A stretch of DNA of 64,000 nucleotides from NCBI RefSeq assembly GCF_019634775.1, contig NZ_JAHCAS010000002.1, forward strand, positions 496,001 to 560,000, read 5' to 3'. Every line of letters begins with the position of its first letter. Within the stretch, counting starts at the first letter, position 1. A program made the translations under genes and the position numbers. Source of the DNA: Dokdonella sp. GTDB taxonomy: Bacteria > Pseudomonadota > Gammaproteobacteria > Xanthomonadales > Rhodanobacteraceae. The notes beneath the pieces were generated by a model that saw only the letters and a list, made by a program, of their open reading frames with translations, was not told the origin of the DNA and did not search any database. Shown in pieces: positions 38,652 to 56,291 of the stretch.

Positions 38652-39097
38652 ACGCGCAAAAGACCGCCCATGTCGTCGAGATACTGCTCGTCGAGGACAA
38701 CGAAGGCGATGTGCGCCTGACCCGCGAGGCCCTGAGCGAAGGCCGCATCCGCAATTGCCTCAGCGTGGTCAACGACGGTGAACAGGCGCTCGCCTTCCTG
38801 CGTCGCCAGGAGCCATATGCGCAGGCGCCGCGCCCGGACCTGATCCTGCTCGACCTGAACTTGCCGCGGCTCGACGGCCGCGAAGTACTCGCCGAGATCA
38901 AGAGTGATCCCGACCTCAAGCAGATACCGGTGGTCGTGTTGACCAGTTCGCGCGCAGAGCAGGATCTGCTGCGCGCCTATGACCTGCATGCCAACTGCTT
39001 CATCGGCAAGCCGGTTGCATTTGAGGAATTCATCGACGTCGTGCGCAGCATCGAGGATTTCTGGCTGACCATCGTCGTGCTGCCCCCAAAGGAGTGA
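38648..39097 (+). CDS. Rcp1-like single-domain response regulator
   Basis: The 149-aa REC protein overlaps the kinase stop (ATGA). It shows [18 protein letters not shown], phospho-acceptor Asp69 ([10 protein letters not shown]), [14 protein letters not shown] and GKPVAFEEF. Its sequence is close to the first REC of the GGDEF-EAL protein two genes upstream, which suggests that both receive phosphate from the same kinase and compete for it. It has no output domain and probably acts by binding or as a phosphate sink. Confidence 0.92.
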
Positions 39098-40780: not shown

Positions 40781-41248
40781 CTATTTCGTTTCGCGCTCGG
40801 TGGCGATGAAGCGTTCGAGGGCTTTGCGCGCGTTGACGGTGACCTTGGCACGCAGCGGCGGTGTCCAGCCCAGCAGGAGACCGAGCGGCCCGAGCGCCTG
40901 GCGCGACCAGCGCCAGAAGGCGAAATCGTCGACCTGTTCGACGATGAGACCGTCGGCGAAGCGGAAATGAGAGCGCACGATGTTGTGCACGGGGCGCCCG
41001 GTACTCGAGAACGTGTACCAGGCCTGCCAATCTGCGCGCCCCTCGTCGCCTTCGGCAACGATGCCGGACGCCTGCACGCGCAGATCCGCGGCACGCGAGC
41101 ACAGCATCCGCCACATCGCGCCGACTTCAGCGCCATACAGTTCGAATACCGGATCGCGGAAACTCGCATGGGTGTGGTAGCAGGCCGCCATCGCCGCGCC
41201 GTCGTGGCGGGCGAAGGCGGCGAAATAGCCTTCGATCAACGCACGCAT
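40781..41248 (-). CDS. NTF2/SnoaL-like protein
   Basis: The ATG at 41248 gives 155 aa starting MRALIEGYFAAFARHDGAAM, with ACYHTHASFRDPVFELYGAE and IVRSHFRFADGLIVEQVDDF. This is the NTF2-like cone fold found in SnoaL-type proteins, most of which bind or isomerise small hydrophobic molecules or serve as accessory proteins. It lies 34 bases after the decahaem-propeller gene and is probably the last gene of the conduit operon. No catalytic role can be read from sequence. Confidence 0.8.
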   Translation of the reverse strand: MRALIEGYFAAFARHDGAAMAACYHTHASFRDPVFELYGAEVGAMWRMLCSRAADLRVQASGIVAEGDEGRADWQAWYTFSSTGRPVHNIVRSHFRFADGLIVEQVDDFAFWRWSRQALGPLGLLLGWTPPLRAKVTVNARKALERFIATERETK

Positions 41249-41282
41249 GTCGATGGGTGCCGGCACGACGCGCTCGCCCCGA

Positions 41283-44200
41283 TCAGTTCGGCCCGTGGGT
41301 GTCCGATGCCGTACCGGTCGGCGCGGCATGCCTGGACGGGCCGGCGACGGGTACGGGGATGTTGGGGGAGAGCGCCGTGCCGTGGTCGTCGATGGCGTTG
41401 CTGACGTACCAAGGTGTGCCATCCTCCTTGAGGAACAGGCGGCGCATTTCCTCGAGGGTGAACGGGCGCGAGCCGATGCGGCCGAATACGGCGACCTGAT
41501 GGCCGCTCTCGTCGACCGCGCGGTCGCGTTCGAGGCCGCGCGACAGCGACAGGGCAGGCTTGCCGGTCGGATACCAGGCGACGAGCTGCGGCTTCGGGTC
41601 GGGGGCGAAACCGTAGAACTTCGGTTGCGATTCCGGCGACGTGAGCTGGATGACCTTGAGACCGTTGCGGCCGTCTGCGACATAGGCGAACAGCGAGGCG
41701 TTGGTCGTTCCGACCACGACGTCACGCGCATCGTTGAGCTTGCCACCGGCGTTGTACATCTCGTACAGCCTGGGTTGCTCGGGATTGGTCACGTCGATGA
41801 TGGCGAGGCCGTCAGCGCCGTTGGCGATGAAGGCCCAGGTGCGGGCGATGTGCAGCTTTTGCGGGTCACGCAGAGACAGATGGGCGCCGGGGACTTCGGC
41901 GGCTCGCTCGGGCCTGGTCACGTCGACGACGTGCAGGCCGTCGGTGGCGGTGACGAAGAGATAGCGGAATTGCACCTGGCTGGCGCGCGCCCCGGCGATC
42001 GGGATCGTCTTGACGTAGCGCGGTGCGAGCGGGTCATCGAGGTCGAGGACGACGATGCCGCGCTCGGTGGCAACATAGAACGTCGTGCCGGCGATGGTCA
42101 GGTGGCGCGCTCCGTTGAGCACGCCGTCGCCGTTCCAGGTCATGGCGCGCTCGAGGTTGTTGTTGCGCGCCTCGCCATCGACCAGGGTGTCGATGTCGGT
42201 GGCGATCAGGCCTTCCTCGGCATCGGTGATGAAAGCGTATCGGTAGACCGGATGCATCACCTGTTCGGCGTTGGGGCCGCGCATCAGCTCGCCTTCGTTG
42301 CGCTTGGGCGCGACCGGTTGGGTCGTTGCCAGCGCAACACAGGTTGCATTCCTCGACTTGATCGCAGTGTTCTGCCCGAGTGGGGAGAACGGTGCGGTGA
42401 TGAGTTTCTGCGAGAAGCCCTTGTTGCCGATACTGGCGACGTCGTAGATCTGCGTGCCCTTGGTGCCTTCGGCGACGAACAGGTACTCGCCACGCAGTTG
42501 CAGGCACTCGGCAGTGCCGGCCGAATGCGCATGCGCGACTGGCAGGCGCTGCCCACGCTGCTGGTGCTCGGAGAACCAGTCCGGATAGGCGTATTTCTGC
42601 AGGTAGCTGCCGATCACCGCCTGCGGCTCGTCCCACTCGGTGACCTGTACGGCGTTGATCTCGCCGTCGCCACCGACCCAGGCGTGGAAGCCGACGAAAT
42701 CGATGAACTTCGTGCCGAGCAGCAGCAGCTGCGCCATGATGGCATTGTTGTCGTTGTTCTTCGACAGGTGGCAATCCTCGCAGTCCTTGGTCTCGGTCTT
42801 GCGTTCGGTGTGCGGGTAGTGCGGCGCAAATGCCTGCGAGCTGTAGCCCGAAGCGGCGATCGGCGGCTGCTGGACGTAGATCTTCTCGCGGTTGATGTTG
42901 GTCGAGGACAGCACCAGCGCCGACGAGGAGCGCACCGGCGCAATCTTGCCGTCCTTGATCCCGCCATGCTTGCCAAGGAAGAACATCTCGTCGCGCGCGA
43001 CCTGCGGGTTGTAGGTGGCGAAGTTGCGCGTGTAGCCGCCTTCGTACTTGTGGCGCTCGGTTTTCCAGTTGGCCTCGATCGGCAGGTGGCAGCCGCCGCA
43101 GCTCGTCGTCCAGGAGGTGTGGCACGAGTAGCACAGCATCTTGTCTTCGCCGTGGGCGCGTTCGTCGAGCGGCACATCCTTGCCCCAGCGCAGCTCGTCG
43201 GTGCCGCGCGCCATCGTATGGGCGCGCGTCGCCTTCGGATTGTATTCGCCGGACAGAGGATCGACGCTGTCCTTGACCAGGCTCATCGTCCATTCCAGGC
43301 CGGGTGTCACGGCCGAGCGCTGGATCAGCTTGTCGCCGACCCATTCGAAACGCTTCTTGCCGTCCGGGTTGCGGATCAGCAGCAGGTTGGTGCCGAACTT
43401 CGAGGCCGCCGGACCCGAGGTCTTCAGCGTCGGTGGCGCATCGACCGTGCCGTGGCAGTCCTGGCACTGGATTTCCACCGCGCCCATGACCTCGGCCTTG
43501 AGGTAGCCGTTGCCGTGATTGTCCTGGGCGAAATGGCAATCGACGCACTGCATGCCGACGTCGACGTGGATCGACGAGAGGTGCACGCCCTTCTTCCACT
43601 TGTCCGGATCGTCGTCGGCGATCTTCGTGCCGGCGGCGTCGAGCAGATTGCCCTTGCGGTCACGCTTGTAGATCGCGCGGAAATTCCAGCCGTGGCCGTG
43701 GTAGTCGGCGAACTGGGTGTCCTTGAGCTGCGGATTGAGCAGTGAAACATCCTTGAGGAAATCGACATCGGCCCACTTGCCGCGCGGTGAGGCGCCCTCA
43801 GGATTGCGGTCAAGGATCTTGCGCATCTTCTCCGCGTCGGGGTACTGCTGCTTCTCCGGCCACATGAACGGCGCGTCGGACTCGTAGTCCCACATCGTGT
43901 AGCCGAGCATGGTGTTGATGAACATGTTCGGCTGGTGCATGTGGCAGATCATGCACTGGCTGGTCGGGATCTGGCGCGTGAACTCGTGCTTGAGCGGATG
44001 GCCGGGCACGTCTTTCGGGATGGTTGGATCGGCCTGCTGGCTCGTGCCCATGTTGCCGAACTTCGCGTAGATGGCAGAGTGGCGGGGGTCGCGGTCGTTG
44101 GCGTAGACGACGTGGCAGGCGCTGCAACCGGACGAGCGGAAGTCGCCGGGATTGTCGTTGGTGCCGAGCATCCAGATGAATGGATCGTTGAGGCGTGTCT

Positions 44201-45092
44201 TGTGGATGTTGAGCACGGGGATCGACACGCGCAGGCCGGTGCCGGGCCCGCGGAACGACTGCTTGAGGTCGGGCCGGCCCGGTTCCTCGAGGCGCTGGAT
44301 CTGGCCGAACTCGTTCGGCAGACCGATCTCGGCGAAGATGTTGTTGATGTTGCGCCCGCCGCGCTCGAACACGCGGAAGATGTCGCCCGGCGGCACGGTT
44401 TCCCAGGTCGGCATCGGGTTGATCTTCGGCAGAATTCCGCGCTTGTCCATCGCAGCATCGTTGGGGATGCCGTTTTCGACGGCGGCTGGCTCGCCCTCAC
44501 GCGAATAGGATTCGCCAAGGATCGAGTGCTTGAACGGCAGGATGCCGTTGTTGTACGCGGCGGCGCCCCAGAACATCGCCGCATTGGCCATCAGGCTCTT
44601 CTCGTTGGCCTGGATGATCGGCAGGTGGCAGGCACCGCAGGCCTCGCGCGCGATGCGCAGGTCGCCCGGGTTGATGAAGCGCACGAACTCGGGGGCTTCC
44701 TGCATCAGCCAGGCATAGCTGCGCTCGGGATTTGCTGCTGACGGGAAGCGCGACGGATAACGTGGCAGCACATGGGCGCGTTCCAGCGCTGCGCGATACT
44801 CGACGCTGCCGGTCGAACCCTGGGCCTGCACGCTGGCATCGCCTCCATGGCAGTCCGTGCAGCCGAGCACCACGGCCGGATTGGCGTGCATGGTCTTGCG
44901 ATCGGATGCGCTGTGGCAACTGACGCAGCCAGCCGATTTCGCTTCGGCCTGTTCCCAGGTCTGGAAGGCCGGCGCGGCAGGTGCGGTGACGTATTCGCGC
45001 TCGACTTTCGCAGGCTTGCTGCTGTCGGCGAGAACGGGCGTCGCGGTGAGGGCGACGGATGCGATGCAAGCGGCGGCAATGGATCGCAGCAT
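41283..45092 (-). CDS. Exported decahaem cytochrome c fused to a six-repeat LVIVD propeller
   Basis: The 1269-aa protein begins with a signal peptide (MLRSIAAACIASVALTATPV-LA). The N-terminal two-thirds has ten CxxCH haem motifs in order: CVSCH (56-60), CTDCH (78-82), CGACH, CSACH, CMICH, CVDCH, CQDCH, CYSCH, CGGCH and CEDCH. From about residue 840 six repeats of the LVIVD type follow (EYLFVAEGTKGTQIYDVA; YAFITDAEEGLIATDID; FYVATERGIVVLDLDDP; YLFVTATDGLHVVDVTRP; AFIANGADGLAIIDVTNP; FAYVADGRNGLKVIQLTSP), likely a beta-propeller that docks on a partner or substrate. It should act outside the inner membrane, at or beyond the outer-membrane barrel encoded 16 bases upstream. Electron acceptor unknown. 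Confidence 0.9.
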   Translation of the reverse strand: MLRSIAAACIASVALTATPVLADSSKPAKVEREYVTAPAAPAFQTWEQAEAKSAGCVSCHSASDRKTMHANPAVVLGCTDCHGGDASVQAQGSTGSVEYRAALERAHVLPRYPSRFPSAANPERSYAWLMQEAPEFVRFINPGDLRIAREACGACHLPIIQANEKSLMANAAMFWGAAAYNNGILPFKHSILGESYSREGEPAAVENGIPNDAAMDKRGILPKINPMPTWETVPPGDIFRVFERGGRNINNIFAEIGLPNEFGQIQRLEEPGRPDLKQSFRGPGTGLRVSIPVLNIHKTRLNDPFIWMLGTNDNPGDFRSSGCSACHVVYANDRDPRHSAIYAKFGNMGTSQQADPTIPKDVPGHPLKHEFTRQIPTSQCMICHMHQPNMFINTMLGYTMWDYESDAPFMWPEKQQYPDAEKMRKILDRNPEGASPRGKWADVDFLKDVSLLNPQLKDTQFADYHGHGWNFRAIYKRDRKGNLLDAAGTKIADDDPDKWKKGVHLSSIHVDVGMQCVDCHFAQDNHGNGYLKAEVMGAVEIQCQDCHGTVDAPPTLKTSGPAASKFGTNLLLIRNPDGKKRFEWVGDKLIQRSAVTPGLEWTMSLVKDSVDPLSGEYNPKATRAHTMARGTDELRWGKDVPLDERAHGEDKMLCYSCHTSWTTSCGGCHLPIEANWKTERHKYEGGYTRNFATYNPQVARDEMFFLGKHGGIKDGKIAPVRSSSALVLSSTNINREKIYVQQPPIAASGYSSQAFAPHYPHTERKTETKDCEDCHLSKNNDNNAIMAQLLLLGTKFIDFVGFHAWVGGDGEINAVQVTEWDEPQAVIGSYLQKYAYPDWFSEHQQRGQRLPVAHAHSAGTAECLQLRGEYLFVAEGTKGTQIYDVASIGNKGFSQKLITAPFSPLGQNTAIKSRNATCVALATTQPVAPKRNEGELMRGPNAEQVMHPVYRYAFITDAEEGLIATDIDTLVDGEARNNNLERAMTWNGDGVLNGARHLTIAGTTFYVATERGIVVLDLDDPLAPRYVKTIPIAGARASQVQFRYLFVTATDGLHVVDVTRPERAAEVPGAHLSLRDPQKLHIARTWAFIANGADGLAIIDVTNPEQPRLYEMYNAGGKLNDARDVVVGTTNASLFAYVADGRNGLKVIQLTSPESQPKFYGFAPDPKPQLVAWYPTGKPALSLSRGLERDRAVDESGHQVAVFGRIGSRPFTLEEMRRLFLKEDGTPWYVSNAIDDHGTALSPNIPVPVAGPSRHAAPTGTASDTHGPN

Positions 45093-45108
45093 GGTTCTTC
45101 GCGCCCCC

Positions 45109-46929
45109 TCAGTACGTGAAGATCAGGTTGCCGAGCACCGTGTAGTAACGGGTGTCGTTGCCATAGAGATCCTTGAGGCCCTGGCCGGGCAGCAGGGTCG
45201 CCGCGGACAGGCGCAGGATGATGTTCTGCGTGGCATACGGCCGCCAGATCCACGCCACCGAGACATCGGTGCCGATATCGCGGCTGATGTCGGCTTGGTT
45301 GCGTGCAGTCTCCAGGACTTCCGAACGATCGAACCACAGGTGGTTGACGTTGGCCGACACGCGCGACTGCGGTGTGAGGTCGAAGTCGGCGCCGAGGCCG
45401 ATCAGGCGCAGGCCCGGGTTGTCGAAGTTCGACTGGCCCTGTTCCTTCGAGGAATGCAGGTTGGCGAGCAGGCCGTTGCGTCCGGCCAGGGTCACGCCGC
45501 CGCCGCCGATGAACGGGATGTTCTGGCGAATCCAGTAGCTGGTGTCGGCACCGGCGAAAATCGGGTTCTCGAAGATCGCGTCGTAACCGGTCGAGCGATC
45601 GTCGTAAGGATCCTTGTCGCCGCTGGCCCAGGCCGCCGAGGCGCGCACGCGGATCCAATCGAAGTCCATGGACGCTTCAGCCGCCACGAAGCCGGCGCGT
45701 ATATCGGTCTTTTGCGGCACGAACACTCCACCGTCCTTCTGGTCGCCGATCGCCGCATACGCGGCCACGGTGAGGTTCAGGCGCCCTATGTGCCCGTCGC
45801 CGTTGTAGCCGATGTAGCCGACATCGTAGGTGCGCGGCGCCTCGCGGCCGATCGCGGCCGGGCGCTGGATGAAGCCGTTGGAGTCGTAGAAGCTCTCGTC
45901 CTCGCGGTTGCGGTTCCAGGCAACGATCGCCTGCGAAGTGAAGCCGAGGAACGGGAAGTCCTGGCGGTACAGGCTGGCCAGCAGGATGTCGTCGTCGCGC
46001 GGTGATTTCGTGACATCGTTGAGGCCCGAGTTCAGGTCCTTTTCGAGGCGCCGGAACCAGGCGATGTTGTACTGCCACTTGTTGTTGTCGCGGTTGCCGA
46101 AGAAACGCACGCCGGGCTGGTTGTCCTGGTACAGGAAACCGCGGAAGTCCGACGAGAACGGTTGGATGCCGATGCGTACCTCGTCGACGTCGTAGCGCGA
46201 CGAGGCGGTGCGGTAGTCCTTGGTGAAGAACAGCTCCTGCACGCCGATGAACCCGTCGTCGCGCGTGCGGCCGAAGGTCGGATCGAGCTGCAGGGCGCGC
46301 ACTTCTTCGGTGCGCACGCGGTTGTAGTTCAGGGCCAGCGCGAGCTTGAACTCGTAGTCGGGTGGCTTGAATGCCGTGTCGCCCTTGTAGAGCAGGAAAC
46401 TGGCGATCACGGTCTGCGCGAAGATGGTCTGGTCGGTGTCGCCGAGCACATCGTTGGACCCGGGTTCCGGGCTCGACTGCGGGCCGACCGGAGTCGGGAT
46501 GCCGCGCGGTTCGACCAGGGTGTCGGACACTCCGGTCATGGCGAAGAACCAGTCCTCGCCGAAGATCGGCTTGTCACCCTTCAGTACGTTCTGGTTGTAG
46601 GGGTCGTACCACGGCGACTTGAGACCGAGCGCCTCCATGATGCGCCAGCGATCCGGGACCGGAATGAAGCTGCCAGCCTGGTCGACCGGGGCCGGGTTCA
46701 CCGCGTCGGGATTCTGCTCGACGAACATCGGCAGCGGTTCGGGCGGATGGCCCGGACGCCTGCGCGGAATCTGCGACTGGTATGGATCGTAGGTCGGCGC
46801 CTGCAGCACGCCGAACAGCAGCAGCCAATCGGGCTGGATGCCCGGCAGGTCGGCCTGTGCGTTGCCGACGAACAGGGCCCCGGCGAGACCGAGGCCGAAG
46901 GTGCGAAGGTGCAGGGCGATGCGGCGCAT
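45109..46929 (-). CDS. Outer-membrane beta-barrel of the cytochrome cluster
   Basis: The 606-aa protein has a signal peptide ending LFVGNAQA-DL and no haem motifs. From about residue 170 it shows alternating amphipathic strands (FKLALALNYNRVRTEEVRAL, YNIAWFRRLEKDLNS, VSANVNHLWF, VSVAWIWRPY) and ends LGNLIFTY, with a terminal aromatic residue as in BAM-assembled barrels. It is not recognisably MtrB. Between a periplasmic decahaem protein and an exported one, it plausibly forms the sheath or docking pore of an outer-membrane electron conduit. The role is inferred from context. Confidence 0.8.
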   Translation of the reverse strand: MRRIALHLRTFGLGLAGALFVGNAQADLPGIQPDWLLLFGVLQAPTYDPYQSQIPRRRPGHPPEPLPMFVEQNPDAVNPAPVDQAGSFIPVPDRWRIMEALGLKSPWYDPYNQNVLKGDKPIFGEDWFFAMTGVSDTLVEPRGIPTPVGPQSSPEPGSNDVLGDTDQTIFAQTVIASFLLYKGDTAFKPPDYEFKLALALNYNRVRTEEVRALQLDPTFGRTRDDGFIGVQELFFTKDYRTASSRYDVDEVRIGIQPFSSDFRGFLYQDNQPGVRFFGNRDNNKWQYNIAWFRRLEKDLNSGLNDVTKSPRDDDILLASLYRQDFPFLGFTSQAIVAWNRNREDESFYDSNGFIQRPAAIGREAPRTYDVGYIGYNGDGHIGRLNLTVAAYAAIGDQKDGGVFVPQKTDIRAGFVAAEASMDFDWIRVRASAAWASGDKDPYDDRSTGYDAIFENPIFAGADTSYWIRQNIPFIGGGGVTLAGRNGLLANLHSSKEQGQSNFDNPGLRLIGLGADFDLTPQSRVSANVNHLWFDRSEVLETARNQADISRDIGTDVSVAWIWRPYATQNIILRLSAATLLPGQGLKDLYGNDTRYYTVLGNLIFTY

Positions 46930-46930
46930 G

Positions 46931-48952
46931 TCACTTGCCCTCGCAGACGTACTGTTCGTTGGAATTCAGGAACGGCGATTGCGGACACTGCACGTAGAGC
47001 AGACGCGCGCCCTGCGGGACCAGGGTGTCGGCACGGATTGCCGGCGGTGCGTTGCCGATTGCGCCACCGAGGACGACACCGGCGTTGTGCAGGCCGAGGA
47101 AGGCGACGAGGTCGCTCTGGTCGGTGCCATCGCCGGAGGCACCGACCGCGCCGACCAGGGTGTTGCCGCGGTAGATCGGCACGCTGCCGCCGAACAGGGT
47201 GATGCCGTTCGGCACGCGATCGATGCCCGTGCAGTTGGTCGGTGCCTCGCCGAGCGGGGGCAGGTCGGTGCCGTCGAGGCTGACGGTCAGGCCGATCTGC
47301 TGCAGGTAGAAGGCGAGGAACAGGGCAGCCTGGTTGTAGTCGAGATCGAGTTCCAGGCCGGTGCTGAACACGCTCCAGTCGTTGATCGGCAGGCTCAACG
47401 GGCCCGGCGGGCGGCCCGGCACGCCGTCCGGATAGAACGGCCGCGACAGGTTGCCGATCGCGCGGTTCGAATACGCGATCGCGCCGTCGCCGAGCGCGCC
47501 CGAAGCGGGCAGGAAGGCGCGCAGTGCCGTGACGTAGGCGAAAGGACTGCGTGAGCCGGCCGAGGTGAAGGCGACGCGGCCGTTGGCGAGGTCGAGGGCG
47601 CCGCGCAGGTAGGTTGCCGGCGGCACCGAGGCGAGATCGGCGGCAGCGTAGCCGCCCGAGAAGAATGCGGCCGTGCGCGCCTTCTGCGTGGTCACGTCGA
47701 CTGCATCCACCAGGGCGTCGCGCGAGCGCACGAGGCCGAGCACGACGCCGTTCGTGTCGACCACGACGATGGTTTCGCCGGCCGGTGAGCCGAGTGGCTT
47801 GCGCACCTGCGCACGCGTGCGGTTGGCGACCTTGAGCGCTTCGCTCATCAACGTGCGCACTTCCTCTGCGCTGAGCGCCGCCGGGCCATCGGTGCCCGCG
47901 CGCGGCGGAAAGCGGTTGGTGCCGCTGCCGTCGTCGACGACGAAGGCATCGAGGCCGGGAAAAGTCACCGGATCGGGCCGGATGCCGGATTCGACCTGGC
48001 CGAAGGCGAGGCCGCGCGAGATCGTGCCACTGAAGAAGGCGGGGATCGCGATCACTTGGCCGTCGGCCGGGCCGAGCGTGGCGAATGCCGGTGCGCTGGC
48101 CGGATTGCGCGCAAGCTGGTTGAACTCGACATCGGTGAAACGCAGGCTCAAGCCACCGGCCGTGATGCGATCGGCGCGGCGGTCCACCGGTGCGGCGAAA
48201 CCATACGTCCCGGCCAGGGCGATGTATTCGTCGAGGTTGCGGTCGATGTCGCCGGCGAAGGTGTCGACGCCGTAGGTGTCGTCGGCGGATACGCCGATCG
48301 CACCGACCGGCACTCCATTCTTGTACAGCGGCACCCCGCCTGGATCGGCGGCGATACCGATCGGCGAGCGATGTGGGCCGGCGCTCGGGCCGATGCCGTT
48401 GAAGCGTGCCGAGATGTCCGAACACGGCAGTTGCGAGAACTGCACGCCGAACAGAGGCCCCGAAGGAGCGGTGATGTCGCCGGGATTGAAATGCTCCTGC
48501 GCGACCTGGCCGGCCGTACGCGAGGTGAAGGCATTTCCTTCGGAGGAGAAATACACCGAGGTGATGGCCTTGGCGATCGCGGTCAGTTCGCTCGGAATCT
48601 CGAGGCCTTCGAGGCCGCCGATGACGCCACGCCCGGAATCGACCTTCTGCGTGCGTCGGCTGTTGGTCATGCGATAGGCGCCGAGCACGTTGCCGACGCG
48701 GTCGACGACAGTGATCGTCGCCGGCAGGTTCTGGCCCTGCGCCTCGTTGACGGCCTGCGCGATGATGCGCCGGATGTCGTCTTCGGTGAGGAACGAACTG
48801 GCGTTTGCGCACGAACCCGAGCACCCGGAGTCACCGGAGCCGGTGCCGGGTCCAGGCGATGTCCCGTCGGTACTGGCGGTATTGCTGCCACCGCCGCACG
48901 CGGCCAGCAACGATGTCCCGATCAGCAACGCGCCGAATCTCACGATCCCCAT
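46931..48952 (-). CDS. Two-domain GlcG/HbpS-like lipoprotein
   Basis: The ATG at 48952 follows GAGGACGG and starts a lipoprotein signal (MGIVRFGALLIGTSLLAAC); 673 aa. Residues 20-45 are a Gly/Ser/Thr linker with CSGSC. Two GlcG/HbpS-type regions follow, the first with DIRRIIAQAVNEAQGQNLPA, TITVVDRVGNVLGAYRM and GVPVGAIGVS, the second with EVRTLMSEALKVANRTRAQV, TIVVVDTNGVVLGLVRS and GNTLVGAVGASGD. HbpS-type domains bind haem or related redox cofactors in some members. The gene is one base from the barrel gene, so it is likely an outer-membrane-anchored part of the conduit or a haem-handling factor. Confidence 0.8.
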   Translation of the reverse strand: MGIVRFGALLIGTSLLAACGGGSNTASTDGTSPGPGTGSGDSGCSGSCANASSFLTEDDIRRIIAQAVNEAQGQNLPATITVVDRVGNVLGAYRMTNSRRTQKVDSGRGVIGGLEGLEIPSELTAIAKAITSVYFSSEGNAFTSRTAGQVAQEHFNPGDITAPSGPLFGVQFSQLPCSDISARFNGIGPSAGPHRSPIGIAADPGGVPLYKNGVPVGAIGVSADDTYGVDTFAGDIDRNLDEYIALAGTYGFAAPVDRRADRITAGGLSLRFTDVEFNQLARNPASAPAFATLGPADGQVIAIPAFFSGTISRGLAFGQVESGIRPDPVTFPGLDAFVVDDGSGTNRFPPRAGTDGPAALSAEEVRTLMSEALKVANRTRAQVRKPLGSPAGETIVVVDTNGVVLGLVRSRDALVDAVDVTTQKARTAAFFSGGYAAADLASVPPATYLRGALDLANGRVAFTSAGSRSPFAYVTALRAFLPASGALGDGAIAYSNRAIGNLSRPFYPDGVPGRPPGPLSLPINDWSVFSTGLELDLDYNQAALFLAFYLQQIGLTVSLDGTDLPPLGEAPTNCTGIDRVPNGITLFGGSVPIYRGNTLVGAVGASGDGTDQSDLVAFLGLHNAGVVLGGAIGNAPPAIRADTLVPQGARLLYVQCPQSPFLNSNEQYVCEGK

Positions 48953-49027
48953 CCGTCCTCCCGTAGCGAGCATCGAGCTGGCTGGCGGTACCCCGCGGGC
49001 GATGATAGCTCAGCGGCCCACGGTCGC

Positions 49028-50740
49028 CTATCGCGCCTTGTTTCCGGTTGCCGGCGAACGTGTCGTCGGTGTGTCCAGGGTCAGGCCCGGCAACCGATGG
49101 TAGTCGTGGCAGGCGATGCAGGTGCTCTGCACCTTGCCTGCCGCGTGCGCTCCGCCATGGCACTGGCGGCAGTTGTCGATGCCGGGAATCAGCAGATCAT
49201 TCGCACCCTTCGAGGTTTCCGCTCCGGCATGGCAGTCGACGCAGGCCATCGTCTCGTGCCGTTGGTGGCTGAACTTCGCATCGACGTACCAGAGCCCGGC
49301 CACACGCACCGGTGCGACCTTCCATTCGGGATTGTTCGGACTCGGCGCGGCAATCGTGTGGCAGGTGACGCAGGCCTTGCCGGTGAACAGGGTGCGGGCC
49401 GCCTCGCGCGAACGGTCGCGCGCCCAGGCCAGCGCCTCGACGGTTTCCTGGCGCGACAGCGGCGGCGAACCGGGTCGGCGGCGCTCCTGCACGATGGTCG
49501 GCGCACGCGCGTCGGCATAGCCGCCTTCGAGCGCGCGCCGCGCATAGAACTCGTCGAGCGTGTAGACCACGGCGGGCACGTCGGCATGCGGCACCTGGCG
49601 GTCCGGTGCCAATGTGTCGAAACCGAGCGCGTGGCATTCGCGGCACATCGTCTCGAAGGCGATCGGTTTCATCGCCGCGCCACCCGGTTCGGTGACGTGG
49701 CAGCTCGCACACTCCAGCACCTTGCGCCCGTTCGGCGTGTTCAGGCCATCCGCCTTCAGGTGCACGGCATGGTCGAACTTGAGGCCGGAGTTTTCCTTCA
49801 ACCCAGCCGACCACGGCATCGACTTCGGCATGAAGTTGCCGGCAATGTCCCAGCCGGGCAGGTTGACGTGGAACTCCGGGTGCGCGGTACCGAAATCAGC
49901 AATGTCGGCGATCGAGCTCGCGCCCCGGGTGTTTGCCTTGAGGTCGCGGTGGCAGTCGGCGCACAGGCCTTGGTCGGTGCTGACCATGCCGCGGTTGCCA
50001 TTGTGGTCCTTGTGGCAGGTCGCGCAGCGCGTGTCGCCTAGTTCGGGCAGGTTGAACGCCATCGGGTCGGCATGCGCTTTGGTGCGCACGTGGCAGGTCG
50101 TGCAGGCGCTGTCGCGCACCATCAGGAAGGGATTCTGGTGGCAACTGCGGCAATCGTCGCCGAAATGGCGATGGGCGGCATCGAGTTCGCCGGTGCTCCA
50201 CGCGCCGACGCTCGGCAACGGCGAATGTGCGAGCAGCTTGCCGAGCGGCGGGACGAAATGGCCGGCCATCGGCAGGACGAGGAACAGGCCGAGCACGAGC
50301 AGGAAGCCGAGCCACGACGGCCAGCGCTTGCCGAGCCAGGTCTGCGCGAGCGTGGTCGGCTTGCCGCGGCGGGCGAGCATCTCGGCCTGTTCGTTCTTGT
50401 CGATCGCGGCCACCTCGACCGCGGCATCGTAGTCGCCGCGCGTGTCGAGCAGGGTGATGCGCGTCGAGCCCAGTTCGATCGCCGTGCCGGCACCGACCGT
50501 GGTCGCGTAGGTGATCTGGCCGTCGACGCGGATGCCGGCGACGATCAGCGACTCGACGCGATATTGGCCGCCGCCAAGCGAGGTCACGCGCGCGTGGTTC
50601 AGTGCCGCGCGCAGGTCGGGCAGGAAGATCGCCTGGTCGGCGGCGCGGCCGATCGTCAGCACCTCGCCGTAGTGGATGTCCTCCTCATACGAGACGGAGC
50701 TCTTCCCCTTCTTGAGGACGCGACGGATCAGCCAGCGCAT
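49028..50740 (-). CDS. FHA domain-TM-decahaem cytochrome c
   Basis: The 570-aa protein combines a cytosolic FHA-like domain (about residues 20-100; HYGEVLTIGRAADQAIFLPD, LNHARV), one membrane helix (about 143-160, WLGFLLVLGLFLVLPMAG) and a periplasmic region with ten CxxCH motifs: CRSCH, CTTCH, CATCH, CADCH, CASCH, CRECH, CVTCH, CVDCH, CRQCH and CIACH. There is no cleavable signal; the helix both anchors and exports. FHA domains bind phosphothreonine, so a cytosolic phosphoprotein may tie to or gate this electron carrier. It lies between the di-haem b-like gene and the lipoprotein gene. The combination is rare in my knowledge. Confidence 0.88.
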   Translation of the reverse strand: MRWLIRRVLKKGKSSVSYEEDIHYGEVLTIGRAADQAIFLPDLRAALNHARVTSLGGGQYRVESLIVAGIRVDGQITYATTVGAGTAIELGSTRITLLDTRGDYDAAVEVAAIDKNEQAEMLARRGKPTTLAQTWLGKRWPSWLGFLLVLGLFLVLPMAGHFVPPLGKLLAHSPLPSVGAWSTGELDAAHRHFGDDCRSCHQNPFLMVRDSACTTCHVRTKAHADPMAFNLPELGDTRCATCHKDHNGNRGMVSTDQGLCADCHRDLKANTRGASSIADIADFGTAHPEFHVNLPGWDIAGNFMPKSMPWSAGLKENSGLKFDHAVHLKADGLNTPNGRKVLECASCHVTEPGGAAMKPIAFETMCRECHALGFDTLAPDRQVPHADVPAVVYTLDEFYARRALEGGYADARAPTIVQERRRPGSPPLSRQETVEALAWARDRSREAARTLFTGKACVTCHTIAAPSPNNPEWKVAPVRVAGLWYVDAKFSHQRHETMACVDCHAGAETSKGANDLLIPGIDNCRQCHGGAHAAGKVQSTCIACHDYHRLPGLTLDTPTTRSPATGNKAR

Positions 50741-50798
50741 CGGCTTGCCTCGCGTCCGATCGGGTTCGGATTCGGCTGGCTCATGGCTTGCCGGGCGC

Positions 50799-51704
50799 CT
50801 ACCAGTAGAAGAACACTGAAACGATGTGGCCGATCAGGGCGGCGAGCAGGGTCACCGACAGCGGCACGTGGATGTACAGCCAGATCTCCATGATCGCCTG
50901 GTACTGGATGTCGCGCGCGACGCGCGTGGCCAGTGCGCGCTTGCGCGAGAGCATGTCGATGAGCTTGCGCAGTGCCTCGGTCTGGCGGTCGTCGGCACCG
51001 CCGGCGAGGAAATCGACCATGGCGATGATCGTCTGCCCGGCTTTCAGCCCCGCTGGAGGCGCGCCGACCTGGGTGCTGCGTTCGGCGATCGCGCTGCGGA
51101 TGCGCGCGATGGCGAGGTCGGAGCCGTCACGCGCACGCAACTGCGTCCACACGCCGCCGCCGAGGCGCGTGTTCTCGATCGAACGCAGTACCACCGCGTG
51201 GATCTCCGGCGCGATGCCGTCGGCGAGCGCGAGCGCGTTCTGGTCGATCTCGGCGATCTCCTCGAGCATGGCGTCGCGCGTCGCGTTCTCGCGGTTGCGC
51301 GTCATCAGGGCCGGGTAGCGCAGATAAGCGTAGACGCCGAAGAAGCCGCTGAAGATCACCAACAGCATCAGCACGAGTGCCAGCGTGTGCAGGTTCCAGC
51401 CGAACTGGAAGCCGCTGTGAAGCAGGGCGACGAGGATCAGCGCGGTGCCGAGGTAGATGTGTGCGGACAGCCAGCCGCGCGTCGAGCCGAGCGACGTCGA
51501 GTAACTACGCTTGCGCACGCCGAACAGCAGCAGCCAGACGATCAGCAGCGCACCGATCGTGCCGAGCGTGTAGCCGAGCCAGGTGCCGCCGTTCGGCACC
51601 GGATCGGGGTCGTGCCAGACGTAGAACCCGATCGACAGCACGCACAGGGCGAGAGCGATCCACAGGTAGCGGGAGCGGGCGTGGGTCAGGATGGACTCAT
51701 GCAC
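50799..51704 (-). CDS. Membrane di-haem cytochrome b-like protein
   Basis: The start is the GTG at 51704 with AGGAG eight bases ahead; a longer frame upstream is REP translation. The 301-aa protein has five hydrophobic segments (about 13-31, 42-62, 82-101, 105-128, 278-300) and a soluble loop of about 145 residues before the last. His82 and His96 in segment 3, and His279 and His293 in segment 5, are each H-x13-H pairs, the spacing used for bis-His b haems in cytochrome b bundles. It could pass electrons from quinol or from the Fe-S protein across the membrane to the FHA decahaem protein. No close family name is known to me. Confidence 0.75.
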   Translation of the reverse strand: MHESILTHARSRYLWIALALCVLSIGFYVWHDPDPVPNGGTWLGYTLGTIGALLIVWLLLFGVRKRSYSTSLGSTRGWLSAHIYLGTALILVALLHSGFQFGWNLHTLALVLMLLVIFSGFFGVYAYLRYPALMTRNRENATRDAMLEEIAEIDQNALALADGIAPEIHAVVLRSIENTRLGGGVWTQLRARDGSDLAIARIRSAIAERSTQVGAPPAGLKAGQTIIAMVDFLAGGADDRQTEALRKLIDMLSRKRALATRVARDIQYQAIMEIWLYIHVPLSVTLLAALIGHIVSVFFYW

Positions 51705-51778
51705 GGTGGCGCTCCTGGCTTGCTGTTCTTGGTGCGTGGAAGCAGGAGCGAAAGCTGGGGAGTGCGGGCAGCGCTTCT

Positions 51779-51842
51779 GCAGGAGCCCCTTCAGGGGCGA
51801 TCGACCCATCGCCCCTGAAGGGGCTCCCAAGGGGGCTCCTGC
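51779..51842. repeat. REP pair between the cytochrome b-like and FAD/Fe-S genes
   Basis: GCAGGAGCCCCTTCAGGGGC plus GAT (51779-51801) faces GATCGCCCCTGAAGGGGCTC on the opposite arm (51807-51827), followed by an extra partial copy (GGGGGCTCCTGC). Inside an apparent operon such a pair may tune transcript stability between the first and second gene. Confidence 0.85.
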
Positions 51843-51895
51843 GAAGCAAAAAACGGCTGTGCGCAGGCGTTACCGCCATGGTCGCCACCTTTACC

Positions 51896-54304
51896 TCAGC
51901 GCCTCGACTGTGCATACGCCGGAAACTCCTCGGGGCTGATGCGGATCGCCGCACCGGTCGGGCAGGCGCGCACGCAGGCGGCGCCGCCGGACTGGTCCTT
52001 GCACATGTCGCATTTGACGGCTTTCTTGGCTTGGCCGTCCTTCTTCGCGTCCGGGTCGTAGGGCGCTTCGCCCGGGCCGGGGCCGCGCCCGAACAGCAGC
52101 CACTGCAGCAGGCCGGGCTTCTTGGGCGGCTTGCTGGCCATGTGGATGACGCCGTACGGGCAATTGCGCTCGCAGTTGCCGCAGCCGATGCAGTTGTCTG
52201 CAATGAAGACCTCGCCGTTCGGCGCGCGCCGCAGCGCGTCGGGTGGGCAGTCCTTCATGCAGTGCGGGTGCTCGCAGTGGCGGCACGAGGTCGGTACGTG
52301 CACGTTGGCGAAGGTCGGGCCGGCCTCGCGATCAAGGCGCGAGGTGCCGCCGTGGGTTTCCGCGCAGGCCTTTTCGCAGTTGTCGCAACGCACGCACAGC
52401 GATTCGTCGATCAGCAGGATGTCGGTCGCCTCGCCGGCGCCTTGGGCCATCAGGAACGAAATGATGTCGCCGCCTTCCGGCGTCGACTGCATGGCGAGGT
52501 TGGCGGCGGTGCGCTGACGGTATTCCTTCTGCAGGCGCAGGCGCAACGCGGGGATGCGATCGATCATGCGCTTGAAGGTGTCGCCATCGAGACGGATCGT
52601 CTCCGTCGCGATGGCCGCACGCGCTGTCGCCGAGCGCCTTGTTTCGCCCATCAGGGCCATCTCGCCGACGTAGTTGCCGGCGGCGACGTAGGTCAGCACG
52701 ACATCCTTGCCGCCGAGGTTGCGCGAGATCGTCAGCGAACCTACACGCACGAGGTGCAGGCAGTCACCGGCCTCGCCTTCCAGAAACACGTTGTCGCCGG
52801 CGCGGTAGCGTTGCAGGGTCGCGCCGGCCGCCATCTCGTTCAGTTGCTCGATACTCGCCTCGGGGGCGAAGCGCGACTGGATCGCGCGCACGATGAACAC
52901 GCGGTCGATCTCCCTGCGCACGGCTTCCACCGAAGCGATCAGGCGGTTCATCGAGCGCCGTGGCGTCTCGACGAGGATGCAGTTCTGGCCTGCGATGACG
53001 GTCGCGGTGCGTCGGCGGCCGGAGATCAGGCCCATCTCGCCGAAGAATTCGCCGCGGCGGAGGATCACCGGGCTCGATTGGCCTTCGATGACGATGCGCA
53101 CGTCGCCTTCGACAATCGAATAGAAGCTGTTGGTGTAGTCGTTGCGTGCGAAGATCGTCTCGCCGTCCGCGGGCGTGCGGATGTCCGAGTCGAGCATGAA
53201 TTCGCGCATCTGCAGCGGCGTGATGTGCGAGAGCACCGGCACGTTTTTCTGGATGCGAGCAAGCGCCTCGTCGACACTGCGGAAGCCGCTGATGCCTGCA
53301 AACTTGGCCTTGAGCAGGGGAGTGTCGGCCGGTTCGACGTTGCCGCCGCAGATGTATTCGACGACTTCGTAGCCCTGGTTCATCGCCTGCTTGATGAGCG
53401 GATAGCCGCCCAGCGCGCCGACGATGTAGAGGCCTTTCACGTTCGACTCGTACTGCGCGCTGATCGCCGGCACTGCGGCAGGATCCTTGCTCGGGAACTC
53501 GATGCCACAGGCCTCGACGAAGCCGCGCGGCGCGGTCGCGCCGAGACGGGCGATGACGCGGTCGACGAGCACCTGCGCGCGTCCCTTGTCGGTGGCGAGG
53601 ATCATGCGGCCTGGCTTGCGTCCAGCGCTCAATGCCTCGACCCGCTCGGGCGAGCTGTTGTAGTAGCACTCGATGACGCCGTCCTCGATGGCCTTGAGCA
53701 CGGCCTGCTCGTTGCCCTTCTTCGCGCGCGAGAACTCATCCTTGCGGTTGATCAGGACGACGTTGTTCTGTTTCGCAAGGGCCAGCGCGTTCTCGATAGC
53801 CGCATCGCCGGCACCGACGACGACGATCGTCTCGCCCTCGTAGGCATCCGGGTCGTCGAGCTGGTACTGCACGAACGGCAGATCTTCGCCGGCGACACCA
53901 AGCTTGCGCAGGTTGCCCTGCAGGCCGATGCCGAGGACGACGGCCTGGGCCTCGACCTTCGCGCCATTCGTGCAGGCGATGTCGAAGATGCCATCGGCGC
54001 GGCGCTGGATCGAGGCGACTTCGTGGCGATGGCGCACGTTGATCTTGAGGCGCGCGGCGGACTCGTCCCAGGCGTCGAGGATGGTCTCGCGCAGGCCGGC
54101 AGTGAACGGGATCGGCGAGCGCAGCGGCAGGATGCCTGGCTCGTCCATCACGTACTTGCCCTTCTGATAACGGTAGATCGTGTTCGACAGGTGCGGCTCG
54201 GCCTCGAGCAGCACGTGCGATTCACCGCGCTCGGCGGCGCGAGCCGCCGCGGACAGGCCACCCGGACCCGATCCCACGATCGCGATCTTGAAACGCTCGG
54301 TCAT
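51896..54304 (-). CDS. FAD/NAD(P) oxidoreductase - two cNMP-binding domains - four-cluster ferredoxin fusion
   Basis: The ATG at 54304 (802 aa) has GAGGGG five bases ahead; a GTG at 54310 is the alternative. Residues 1-330 are a TrxR-like two-dinucleotide fold (IVGSGPGG at 10-16, VVVGAGDAAIEN near 165, YIVGALGGYP) with no CxxC disulfide, so it is more like a ferredoxin-NADP reductase than a thioredoxin reductase. Two cNMP domains follow, both with intact phosphate cassettes (GEFFGEMGLISGRRRTATV and YVGEMALMGETRRSATARA). The C terminus has four Cys sets: CVRCDNCEKAC, CRHCEHPHCMKDCP, CIGCGNCERNCP and CDMCKDQSGGAACVRACP, the DmsB/HybA pattern. It probably moves electrons from NAD(P)H into the membrane chain under cyclic-nucleotide control. 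Confidence 0.9.
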   Translation of the reverse strand: MTERFKIAIVGSGPGGLSAAARAAERGESHVLLEAEPHLSNTIYRYQKGKYVMDEPGILPLRSPIPFTAGLRETILDAWDESAARLKINVRHRHEVASIQRRADGIFDIACTNGAKVEAQAVVLGIGLQGNLRKLGVAGEDLPFVQYQLDDPDAYEGETIVVVGAGDAAIENALALAKQNNVVLINRKDEFSRAKKGNEQAVLKAIEDGVIECYYNSSPERVEALSAGRKPGRMILATDKGRAQVLVDRVIARLGATAPRGFVEACGIEFPSKDPAAVPAISAQYESNVKGLYIVGALGGYPLIKQAMNQGYEVVEYICGGNVEPADTPLLKAKFAGISGFRSVDEALARIQKNVPVLSHITPLQMREFMLDSDIRTPADGETIFARNDYTNSFYSIVEGDVRIVIEGQSSPVILRRGEFFGEMGLISGRRRTATVIAGQNCILVETPRRSMNRLIASVEAVRREIDRVFIVRAIQSRFAPEASIEQLNEMAAGATLQRYRAGDNVFLEGEAGDCLHLVRVGSLTISRNLGGKDVVLTYVAAGNYVGEMALMGETRRSATARAAIATETIRLDGDTFKRMIDRIPALRLRLQKEYRQRTAANLAMQSTPEGGDIISFLMAQGAGEATDILLIDESLCVRCDNCEKACAETHGGTSRLDREAGPTFANVHVPTSCRHCEHPHCMKDCPPDALRRAPNGEVFIADNCIGCGNCERNCPYGVIHMASKPPKKPGLLQWLLFGRGPGPGEAPYDPDAKKDGQAKKAVKCDMCKDQSGGAACVRACPTGAAIRISPEEFPAYAQSRR

Positions 54305-54503
54305 CGCCACCCCTCAGCCCCGGCCGATCATAGGCGCGGACACGACTCATGGAAAGCCGGAGATTCCGCCCCAACCTGTCGATATCCAATGACGGGGTGA
54401 CATCCGCAAGGCCCGCGGCGCGGTCTGCGCGGCTTGTCCAGGCCGCCAGCCTGTACTTCGCCACGCCCACCTCGCTGCGAACCTTGGGGATGTCATGACG
54501 CCA

Positions 54504-54557: not shown

Positions 54558-56291
54558 ATGACGGAATTGCATCGCCGGCTGCTGCGTGACGTGCCCGAGC
54601 GGCGCGCGGCGCGCAGCGGCGACTTTGCCACCGAGCCACGCGCCCTGCGCAACTGGGTCGCAGCCCTGCCGCTGGCCAACTTCCTTGCCACTGCACGCAT
54701 GCTCGTCGACGGCCTGCGTGCGATGAACGCGTTGCGCATCCCGCCCGGCGAACGTCTCGACGCGCTCGAGATCCTGCGGGGGCCGATCAACCAGTTGGCC
54801 TCGCTGGTGGACAAGCAGATCGTCGGCGCCAGCTTCCCGCTGCCGCCACAGCGCTCCGAGCTGGGCACGCTGGCCCAGGAGTTCCAGTCCGAGCTGGCGC
54901 TTGGCTACCGCATGACACTGCACGACTACTGTGCGCCGAACGGCAGCGTACCGCTGCTCAAGGGCAAGTCCGTCGCACTTTCCGCCGCGCGTGCACTGGG
55001 CCACTGCGGCGCGCGCCTGCACAAGGCGTACCTGTTGTATCGCACGCCACCAAAGGGTTGCTGGCAATCGCTGCACGACGTCTACCGGTTCACCGCTTCG
55101 CTCGGCCTCGATTCGCGCAGCGTCGATGATGATGCCTTCGGTTCGGCCACGCCGCGCCAGTCCTATGTGCATGCGATCTTGCTCGCACTGGCGAACCCGT
55201 ATCGGTTCACCCAGCGCGAGTTGCTTGATTTGATTGCCTTCACGCGCACGTTGGCGCCATATCCGGAACTGCGCCGGGTTGCCGGCGGGCAAGCCGCGCA
55301 TCCGATCGACGTCGAGCGCGATGCAGGCCCCGGCTACATCCCCGAAGAACGCACGACCGTCGACGATGGCGTGCTCGAACTCGATCTCGGTCCGGTGCTT
55401 GCCTTCATCGACGAACAGGTCCGCATGGTCCCGCCCGGAATCCGCCTGGCGACATTCCGCGTGCGCGGTGGCGCGCCGGCACAGGTCGAGGTTGACTTGG
55501 TTCGTCGCATCGTCGATGGCTGGACCTCCGACGGCACGCGAGGGCATCGTCGCCTCGCCGGCGGACATGTCCTGCAGACCGTGATCGGACTGCACGACCT
55601 GCACTTCGTCCTCGCCGGCAACGAGGACTTCGACGGCTTTCTGCGCAAGGTGCGCGGTACCTCGATCAGCCTTTCCGAGCGCGATACGGCGGCCTCCTGG
55701 GTCGTCGGCTCGGGTGAGCAGATGCGCACCCAACGCATGTCTGCGCACATCGTCGACCAAGGCCTGGGCGGCTACCGGTTGGTCTGGGAACGTGGTGCGT
55801 CCGGTGAAAGCGTGCGCGCCAAGGTCGGAGAGCTGGTTGGACTGTCCTTGCCTGAAGGCGGCGATACGACCCCGGACTGGATGGTCGGCAGCGTACGCTG
55901 GATGCGCATCGACGACGAAGGCCGTATCGATGCCGGCATCGAACTGCTCGCACGTCGTTCGCTCGCGGTCGGCGCCGCTGCAGTCGACGCTGCGGGTCAG
56001 GCACGCGCAGACATGCGTGGCATCCTGCTGGCGCCGCTGCGCGAGGAGGAATCCGCGATTTACTCCAGTCTGTTGACGCCCGGACTGTTCGAGCGCGAGC
56101 CGGCCTCGATCGAAATGACGATTCCTGCCGATCCACATCGTTGGCCATCGGCGCCATGCGTGCTGCGGGTACAGGGGGCAGGCACCATGGATTCGACCGG
56201 TTCCTACCTCATGTTCGCGCTGCCGTCGCTGGATCTGCCGGACGATGGCATCGACGCAGCACCCGTGCTGGCGGGCGGGCCCCGGGCTTGA
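54558..56291 (+). CDS. Conserved protein of unknown function, possible PilZ-like C terminus
   Basis: The ATG at 54558 follows AGGGGG; 577 aa, no signal peptide and no membrane segment. The first 250 residues look alpha-helical ([54 protein letters not shown]). Between about 390 and 480 there is a beta-rich segment ([40 protein letters not shown], then GIELLARR) reminiscent of atypical PilZ domains, although the usual RxxxR and DxSxxG pair is not clean. The gene precedes ispG by 70 bases. I cannot give it a function. Confidence 0.7.

Follow-up and report, generated by a model that had tools for sequence, protein, structure and literature searches.

Gene organization of the locus

We studied seven genes lying in a row (g1 to g7) on the minus strand, at positions 40781-54304 of a 64,000-nucleotide stretch of Dokdonella sp. 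DNA (NCBI RefSeq assembly GCF_019634775.1, contig NZ_JAHCAS010000002.1, positions 496,001 to 560,000; hereafter the window). The original prediction had read them as a trans-envelope electron conduit with signalling inputs. The row and its intergenic gaps were present as described: 191 bp between g1 and g2, if g2 starts at the GTG codon at 51704, followed by 58, 54, 1, 16 and 34 bp toward g7. The 20 CxxCH motifs counted earlier were also there, 10 in g3 and 10 in g6, with none in the other five genes. A search of the genome with a tandem CxxCH DNA pattern gave zero matches, the pattern being over-specific. The genes and their parts were assigned as follows:

51896-54304, minus: g1, 802 amino acids, fusion of a nicotinamide adenine dinucleotide phosphate (NADP)/flavin adenine dinucleotide (FAD) reductase, tandem cyclic-nucleotide-binding domains and a 4x[4Fe-4S] domain (Pfam, PDB profiles, conservation)
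53372-54292, minus: FAD/NAD(P) domain of g1 (Pfam, sequence)
52511-53203, minus: tandem cyclic nucleoside monophosphate (cNMP)-binding domains of g1 (Pfam, PDB profiles, conservation)
51941-52414, minus: four [4Fe-4S] cluster domain of g1 (Pfam, NCBIfam, conservation)
50799-51704, minus: g2, five-helix di-haem cytochrome b with GTG start (invariant His, hydropathy, weak b561 match)
49028-50740, minus: g3, forkhead-associated (FHA)-transmembrane-decahaem cytochrome of c7 type (CxxCH motifs, FHA matches of orthologues, c7-type PDB matches)
50441-50668, minus: FHA-like domain of g3 (alignment to GarA, column counts)
50252-50308, minus: single transmembrane helix of g3 (hydropathy; orientation inferred)
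46931-48973, minus: g4, two-domain GlcG/HbpS-like lipoprotein with lipobox LLAAC (Pfam HbpS-like, conservation)
45109-46929, minus: g5, outer-membrane beta-barrel, AlgE/porin-like (AlphaFold2 model, Foldseek, signal peptide, terminal Tyr)
41283-45092, minus: g6, exported decahaem cytochrome with a C-terminal LVIVD beta-propeller at about 41544-42686 (CxxCH motifs, LVIVD match, model)
40781-41248, minus: g7, SnoaL/NTF2-like protein (Pfam SnoaL_2)
54327-54355, minus: promoter-like site just upstream of g1, the sole one in the region, in a count not above chance

Comparison with other genomes (see below) indicates that the core consists of the six genes g1 to g6 plus a pentahaem cytochrome encoded outside the window. 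With seven core genes altogether, in two classes, the finding is larger than first described. The NTF2-like gene g7 exists as predicted and is confined to close relatives; it is thus accessory, peripheral to the core in which it had been counted.

Distribution and co-inheritance of the gene set

The original prediction had staked itself on co-conservation of the genes in other genomes, and we found the core co-inherited in Lysobacterales, in the wider Gammaproteobacteria and in Sphingomonadaceae, i.e., in two classes. Among 61 relatives, from genus to order, g3 was present in 22 and g6 in 20; both were shared by 20 genomes, two had g3 only and none g6 only. The exceptions were G023, whose contig ends just after g5, and G046, which carries a distant variant of g3. 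A class sample of 369 evenly drawn genomes had g3 in 16, g6 in 14 and both in 12 (four with g3 only, two with g6 only), and in the phylum sample the set occurred in 15 of 398 genomes, mostly outside the class. Fisher tests of g3/g6 co-occurrence count each genome as an independent observation, which inflates the significance.

The order g1-g2-g3-g4-g5-g6 was kept in most loci, across classes, and the g5 barrel and g6 decahaem genes were always adjacent and co-inherited. Since the haem counts are fixed (see below) and the order is kept across classes, the gene set is not a product of chance. In some genomes g1-g3 and g4-g6 were found at separate loci, both being present; the two modules are thus coupled in function as well as in position. 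Named carriers comprise Lysobacteraceae and Rudaea metagenome-assembled genomes and plasmids of Sphingobium and Sphingopyxis. The plasmids, pMSHV of Sphingobium herbicidovorans (L123) and pMC4 of Sphingopyxis indica (L124), are typed as conjugative; two-partner secretion genes lie near the set on the former and putA/gdhA on the latter. S. herbicidovorans MH is a cultivated soil strain carrying the set.

Predicted cytosolic input and inner-membrane crossing

Pfam searches assigned to g1 a Pyr_redox domain, two cNMP_binding domains and four 4Fe-4S motifs. Profile matches in the PDB corresponded, from the N to the C terminus, to bacterial ferredoxin-NADP reductase/YpdA, to the tandem cyclic-nucleotide-binding (CNB) domains of the regulatory subunit of protein kinase A (PKA-R) and of protein kinase G, and to a four-cluster ferredoxin of the FHL/HycB type. 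The FAD/NAD(P) motifs GxGxxG and GxGDxA were conserved, with Arg/Lys of the NADPH type. All 16 cluster Cys were kept in 35-36 of 36 orthologues, one sequence lacking the last four. In the phosphate-binding cassettes E425 and R434 were found in 36/36 orthologues, E550 in 34/36 and R559 in 35/36; both cNMP sites are therefore intact. The domain matches and conserved ligands bear out the predicted fusion. A database-style name for g1 would be thioredoxin/bacillithiol-type thiol-disulfide reductase. We rejected it because residues 1-330 contain no CxxC and present GSGPGG at the position where YpdA has its active Cys.

The protein g2 contains two His pairs (82/96 and 279/293), each 14 residues apart on two transmembrane helices and invariant in 27 sequences. 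This is the pattern of a di-haem cytochrome b, in which each of two membrane helices bears a pair of His with a spacing of 13-14 residues, and a firmer assignment than the b-like protein first proposed, and it would place one haem b near each membrane face. The long loop is probably cytosolic by the positive-inside rule. In two genomes of another class (L108:3046-6420 and L109:3844-7203) g1 and g2 formed a single polypeptide of 1120-1125 amino acids (FAD-cNMP-FeS-di-haem b). This natural fusion is strong evidence that the iron-sulphur (FeS) domain of g1 passes electrons to the haems b of g2. A distant variant at L058:9530-19525 has a CNB plus 4x[4Fe-4S] protein lacking the FAD domain, g2-like, g3-like and c554-like genes, and a separate FAD/NAD/2Fe-2S reductase gene nearby, which fits the same logic split over genes.

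The membrane-tethered decahaem cytochrome

The FHA match of the window copy of g3 fell below the cut-off (18.1 vs 20.7 bits); 31 of 37 orthologues matched the profile (best E 4.6e-10). The nearest solved relatives of the domain are GarA/OdhI (PDB profile search; GarA 2e-6), from which g3 differs in the loss of Ser/Asn and in being tethered by a membrane helix to a decahaem. When the phosphothreonine-loop columns were compared with GarA, Arg was found in 48/53 orthologues, Ser in 4/53 and Asn in 0/53. The domain has thus lost its phosphothreonine-binding residues. A better reading is an FHA-like scaffold, comparable to the cytoplasmic YscD domains of type III secretion systems; the model of those domains matched 23 of the 37 orthologues. 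The FHA fold of the original prediction stands; its role in reading phosphopeptides does not. The haem domain showed a cytochrome c7/c3 Pfam match and c7-type PDB matches, and its haem count was 10 in 51/53 orthologues and 9 in the other two. One transmembrane helix follows the FHA-like domain, so that with the N-terminus inside the haems would face the periplasm.

At L047:1-3437 genes for a Ser/Thr kinase and a PP2C phosphatase directly follow the FHA-decahaem gene, and at L092 genes for PP2C and a double-FHA protein follow a pentahaem gene. Phospho-signalling via g3, which these neighbours suggested, was not adopted because kinase genes turn up near the core only here and there and the FHA site has degenerated.

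A pentahaem cytochrome belonging to the set

A cytochrome c554-related protein with one CX4CH and four CxxCH motifs adjoins the set in many loci, including positions next to g6 or g4. Its orthologue in the window genome (C2:121868-123154) lies on the same contig, about 370 kb from the window. Among the 61 relatives, all 21 carriers of the FHA-decahaem had the gene and all 39 non-carriers lacked it (a comparison that leaves out G046, with the distant g3 variant only); in most carriers it was unlinked. Members of the genus vary in whether they have it, as do members of at least two other families (f9 and f10), so that several independent gains or losses agree. The genome with L094:2172-8319 lacks g6; there, g1-g3 are accompanied by two pentahaem c554-like genes in tandem and by a gene whose five-haem product weakly matches an MtrC domain. 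This arrangement appears to be an alternative terminal part.

The predicted outer-envelope part

Four stretches of g4 matched the HbpS-like Pfam family. Its reading as a His-ligated haem sensor was ruled out, there being no invariant His among orthologues. In one genome (L018:11816-16042) the gene for this GlcG/HbpS lipoprotein is in tandem duplicate.

The g5 protein had no Pfam or NCBIfam match, including MtrB_PioB of Pfam. Its AlphaFold2 model, of moderate confidence (pLDDT, the predicted local distance difference test score, 68), was a barrel of 18 strands; Foldseek gave AlgE as the best match, together with Occ porins, and MtrB was absent from the top 50 structural matches. To accommodate MtrA, MtrB requires a barrel of 26 strands. 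The model and the signal peptide agree with the outer-membrane barrel of the original prediction, while a barrel of MtrB type was not recovered; a cytochrome-filled sheath is not indicated by the model, and an outer-membrane crossing of electrons is thus unproven.

The g6 protein matched c7-type and LVIVD Pfam families and had 10 haem motifs in 43/43 orthologues. Its C-terminal beta-propeller was modelled confidently and with Foldseek support; the structural reading is limited to this propeller, the haem part, modelled without haems, being mostly of low confidence. In its haem region g6 shows partial similarity to the ExtM protein encoded in selenite/tellurite operons, at 68.5 bits vs a cut-off of 800.

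Neighbouring genes

If g1 reads cyclic nucleotides, genes making or breaking them are expected nearby, and such genes do recur. A CHASE2-class III cyclase adjoins the core in five loci (L046, L048, L050, L051 and L118), and in L042 a different cyclase (PF00211) is separated from g3 by 7 bp. A SpdA/CpdA-like phosphoesterase, resembling cyclic-nucleotide phosphodiesterases, was encoded close to g3 in seven loci of Alphaproteobacteria as well as in Sphingobium. Representatives of these neighbours were run against Pfam and NCBIfam and the others assigned by BLAST clustering.

In nine loci, drawn from seven families and two classes, a gene for NADP-specific glutamate dehydrogenase lay no more than 2.4 kb from the core, scoring above the curated cut-off where tested; in Sphingopyxis indica gdhA and putA flank the set. 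Such proximity in 9 of 45 loci gave P < 1e-7 by uniform placement, relatedness being ignored. It agrees with the use of NADP(H) by g1 and leaves the direction of electron flow unfixed. GarA, the solved relative of the g3 domain, acts on glutamate dehydrogenase, and we set this beside the frequent dehydrogenase neighbour of g3 loci.

In most Lysobacterales loci the set is adjoined by a divergent conserved gene of 577 amino acids, found in the window at 54558-56291 beside ispG, with no Pfam or NCBIfam match. Several relatives have between it and g1 a gene of about 730 amino acids (L061:3775-5976, L064:15191-17377), absent from the window, that resembles by eye an acetyl-CoA hydrolase/transferase. 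A sensor kinase with a PAS-like region and an overlapping response regulator, also recognized by eye, are located at window positions 35937-39097, near the set and not members of it.

Comparison with known systems

The set shares with MtrCAB/MtoAB (Shewanella, Sideroxydans) decahaems encoded with an outer-membrane barrel and a relay from the inner membrane to the outer envelope. It differs from them in electron input, which is quinol-CymA there and NADPH/FAD/FeS/haem b, with cNMP domains, here. As an MtrA/DmsE-family decahaem (TIGR03508) g3 scored 19.4 bits vs a cut-off of 192.2 and g6 had no match; g5 was rejected as a 26-strand barrel of the MtrB/PioB family on the results given above; and g6 matched no OmcA/MtrC-family surface decahaem in Pfam or NCBIfam.

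PCC3 and Uet of iron oxidizers likewise combine a porin with several multihaem cytochromes, and Uet has NHL-propeller proteins. The periplasmic cytochrome of PCC3 has 21-27 haems, and Uet consists of the undecahaem UetJ and the trihaem UetDEG (PMC10734462). The counts here are 10, 5 and 10, different from both, and the propeller is fused to a decahaem. The Ext selenite/tellurite operon of Geobacter has in common the part of the g6 haem domain similar to ExtM; the score lies far below the ExtM equivalog cut-off, there is no rhodanese-porin and the companions are others. NADPH oxidases (NOX) also pass electrons from NADPH to FAD and then to two stacked haems b across the membrane, sometimes in one polypeptide. 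Their parts are non-homologous to those described here, where four FeS clusters lie between, cNMP domains are present and the electrons would go to c-type haems, not to O2. The multihaem clusters of Methylobacter and Methylococcus have different gene sets.

Literature searches on the parts in combination yielded no account of the set. The nearest published trace that we found is a cluster of ten-haem forkhead-associated proteins, a possible counterpart of g3, which was placed under 'Other' and occurs in 27 of 87 Gallionellaceae iron-oxidizer genomes (PMC10734462). As the original prediction had held for MtrCAB and known porin-cytochrome sets, the genes apparently form an undescribed set for multihaem envelope electron transfer outside MtrCAB, PCC3, Uet and Ext.

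Proposed function and alternatives

The observation itself was confirmed and its earlier interpretation as a whole partly supported. On balance the evidence leans toward a cyclic-nucleotide-gated, NADPH oxidase-like complex that exports cytosolic electrons to a series of multihaem proteins reaching as far as the outer membrane. Cofactor sites, topology and co-inheritance are read from the sequences, and from them we infer the order, direction, gating and acceptor of the flow as follows. Binding of cNMP to the PKA-R-like tandem domains of g1 would open or close the path. NADPH would reduce the FAD of g1, and electrons would run through the four [4Fe-4S] clusters to the two haems b of g2, which would take them across the inner membrane, pushed outward by the inside-negative potential. 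The tethered g3 decahaem would accept them; in the cytosol, its FHA-like domain would help in docking or assembly without reading phosphothreonine. The pentahaem c554-like cytochrome would then shuttle electrons over the periplasm to g6, which, near the outer membrane with the g5 barrel and the g4 lipoprotein, would reduce the final acceptor. Sphingobium and Sphingopyxis are aerobes; since they carry the set, a role in redox balance or in reducing some external or periplasmic compound seems likelier than obligate metal respiration.

Several points weigh against this proposal. In some genomes g1 is separated from g2-g3, and the 100% complete genome G150 keeps g1-g3 and two pentahaem genes without g6, so that the terminal part varies. 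The preference of g1 for NADPH over NADH is deduced from its motif alone. The phosphodiesterase-like matches fall below curated cut-offs, and the window host has no cyclase, phosphodiesterase or glutamate dehydrogenase beside the set, its one class III cyclase being unlinked. There is no described relative from which a function could be borrowed.

An alternative that we hold quite possible, short of expecting it, is a periplasmic reductase: g5 would admit a soluble compound, g4 bind it and g6 reduce it, the electrons staying within the cell. The resemblance of g5 to substrate-specific porins and AlgE, the partial ExtM similarity of g6 and the periplasmic location of c554-type cytochromes speak for it; no known catalytic haem or substrate site was identified, and g4 lacks a known ligand as well as an invariant His. 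Rather unlikely is a conduit of porin-cytochrome type, with g6 or the pentahaem in or on the g5 barrel and electrons passing to minerals, electrodes or partner cells. It would account for the constant adjacency of g5 and g6, and FHA proteins with 10 haem motifs occur in the iron-oxidizing Gallionellaceae (PMC10734462), but the 18-strand, AlgE/Occ-like g5, in a model of moderate confidence, is not of the MtrB kind. Both overlap the preferred explanation, so the confidences given do not sum to one; as endings of the same export chain, periplasmic reductase and true conduit are about equally likely.

We consider doubtful a more specific version of the export proposal, in which a second-messenger-gated NADPH:cytochrome exporter feeds an outer-membrane decahaem-propeller, is coupled to NADP-dependent glutamate dehydrogenase via the non-phospho FHA domain and spreads between aerobic sphingomonads by means of conjugative megaplasmids. 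That this exporter is a bacterial NOX analogue of PKA-R-like, ferredoxin and c7 modules, of a class unknown before, is speculative to the same degree. Inward flow, in which g6 would oxidise a donor in the outer envelope and electrons run to NADP+ for biosynthesis, is improbable. The recurrent NADP-specific glutamate dehydrogenase could use the NADPH made, and FHA-decahaems have been noted in iron oxidizers (PMC10734462); such flow would, however, be uphill for donors of the Fe(II) type and opposed by the membrane potential unless coupled, and the set has no coupling subunit (NrfD, RnfD or a Nuo-like pump). That the genes are unrelated and adjacent by accident, for which the only argument is that some genomes have the set at two separate loci, is scarcely credible, being refuted by the phyletic profiles: co-inheritance when unlinked, together with the g1-g2 fusion and an order conserved in two classes.

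The well-studied electron relays of the outer envelope take their electrons from the quinone pool, and no example under second-messenger control is known to us. If the preferred proposal of NADPH-driven export is true, a relay with domains of the cAMP/cGMP type would link electron export directly to cell signalling and to the balance of nitrogen and NADPH. It would also mean that electrons are exported in common aerobes, Lysobacterales and Sphingomonadaceae, that are seldom considered electroactive, and it may give a context to the ten-haem forkhead-associated protein listed with no assigned function in Gallionellaceae iron oxidizers (PMC10734462).

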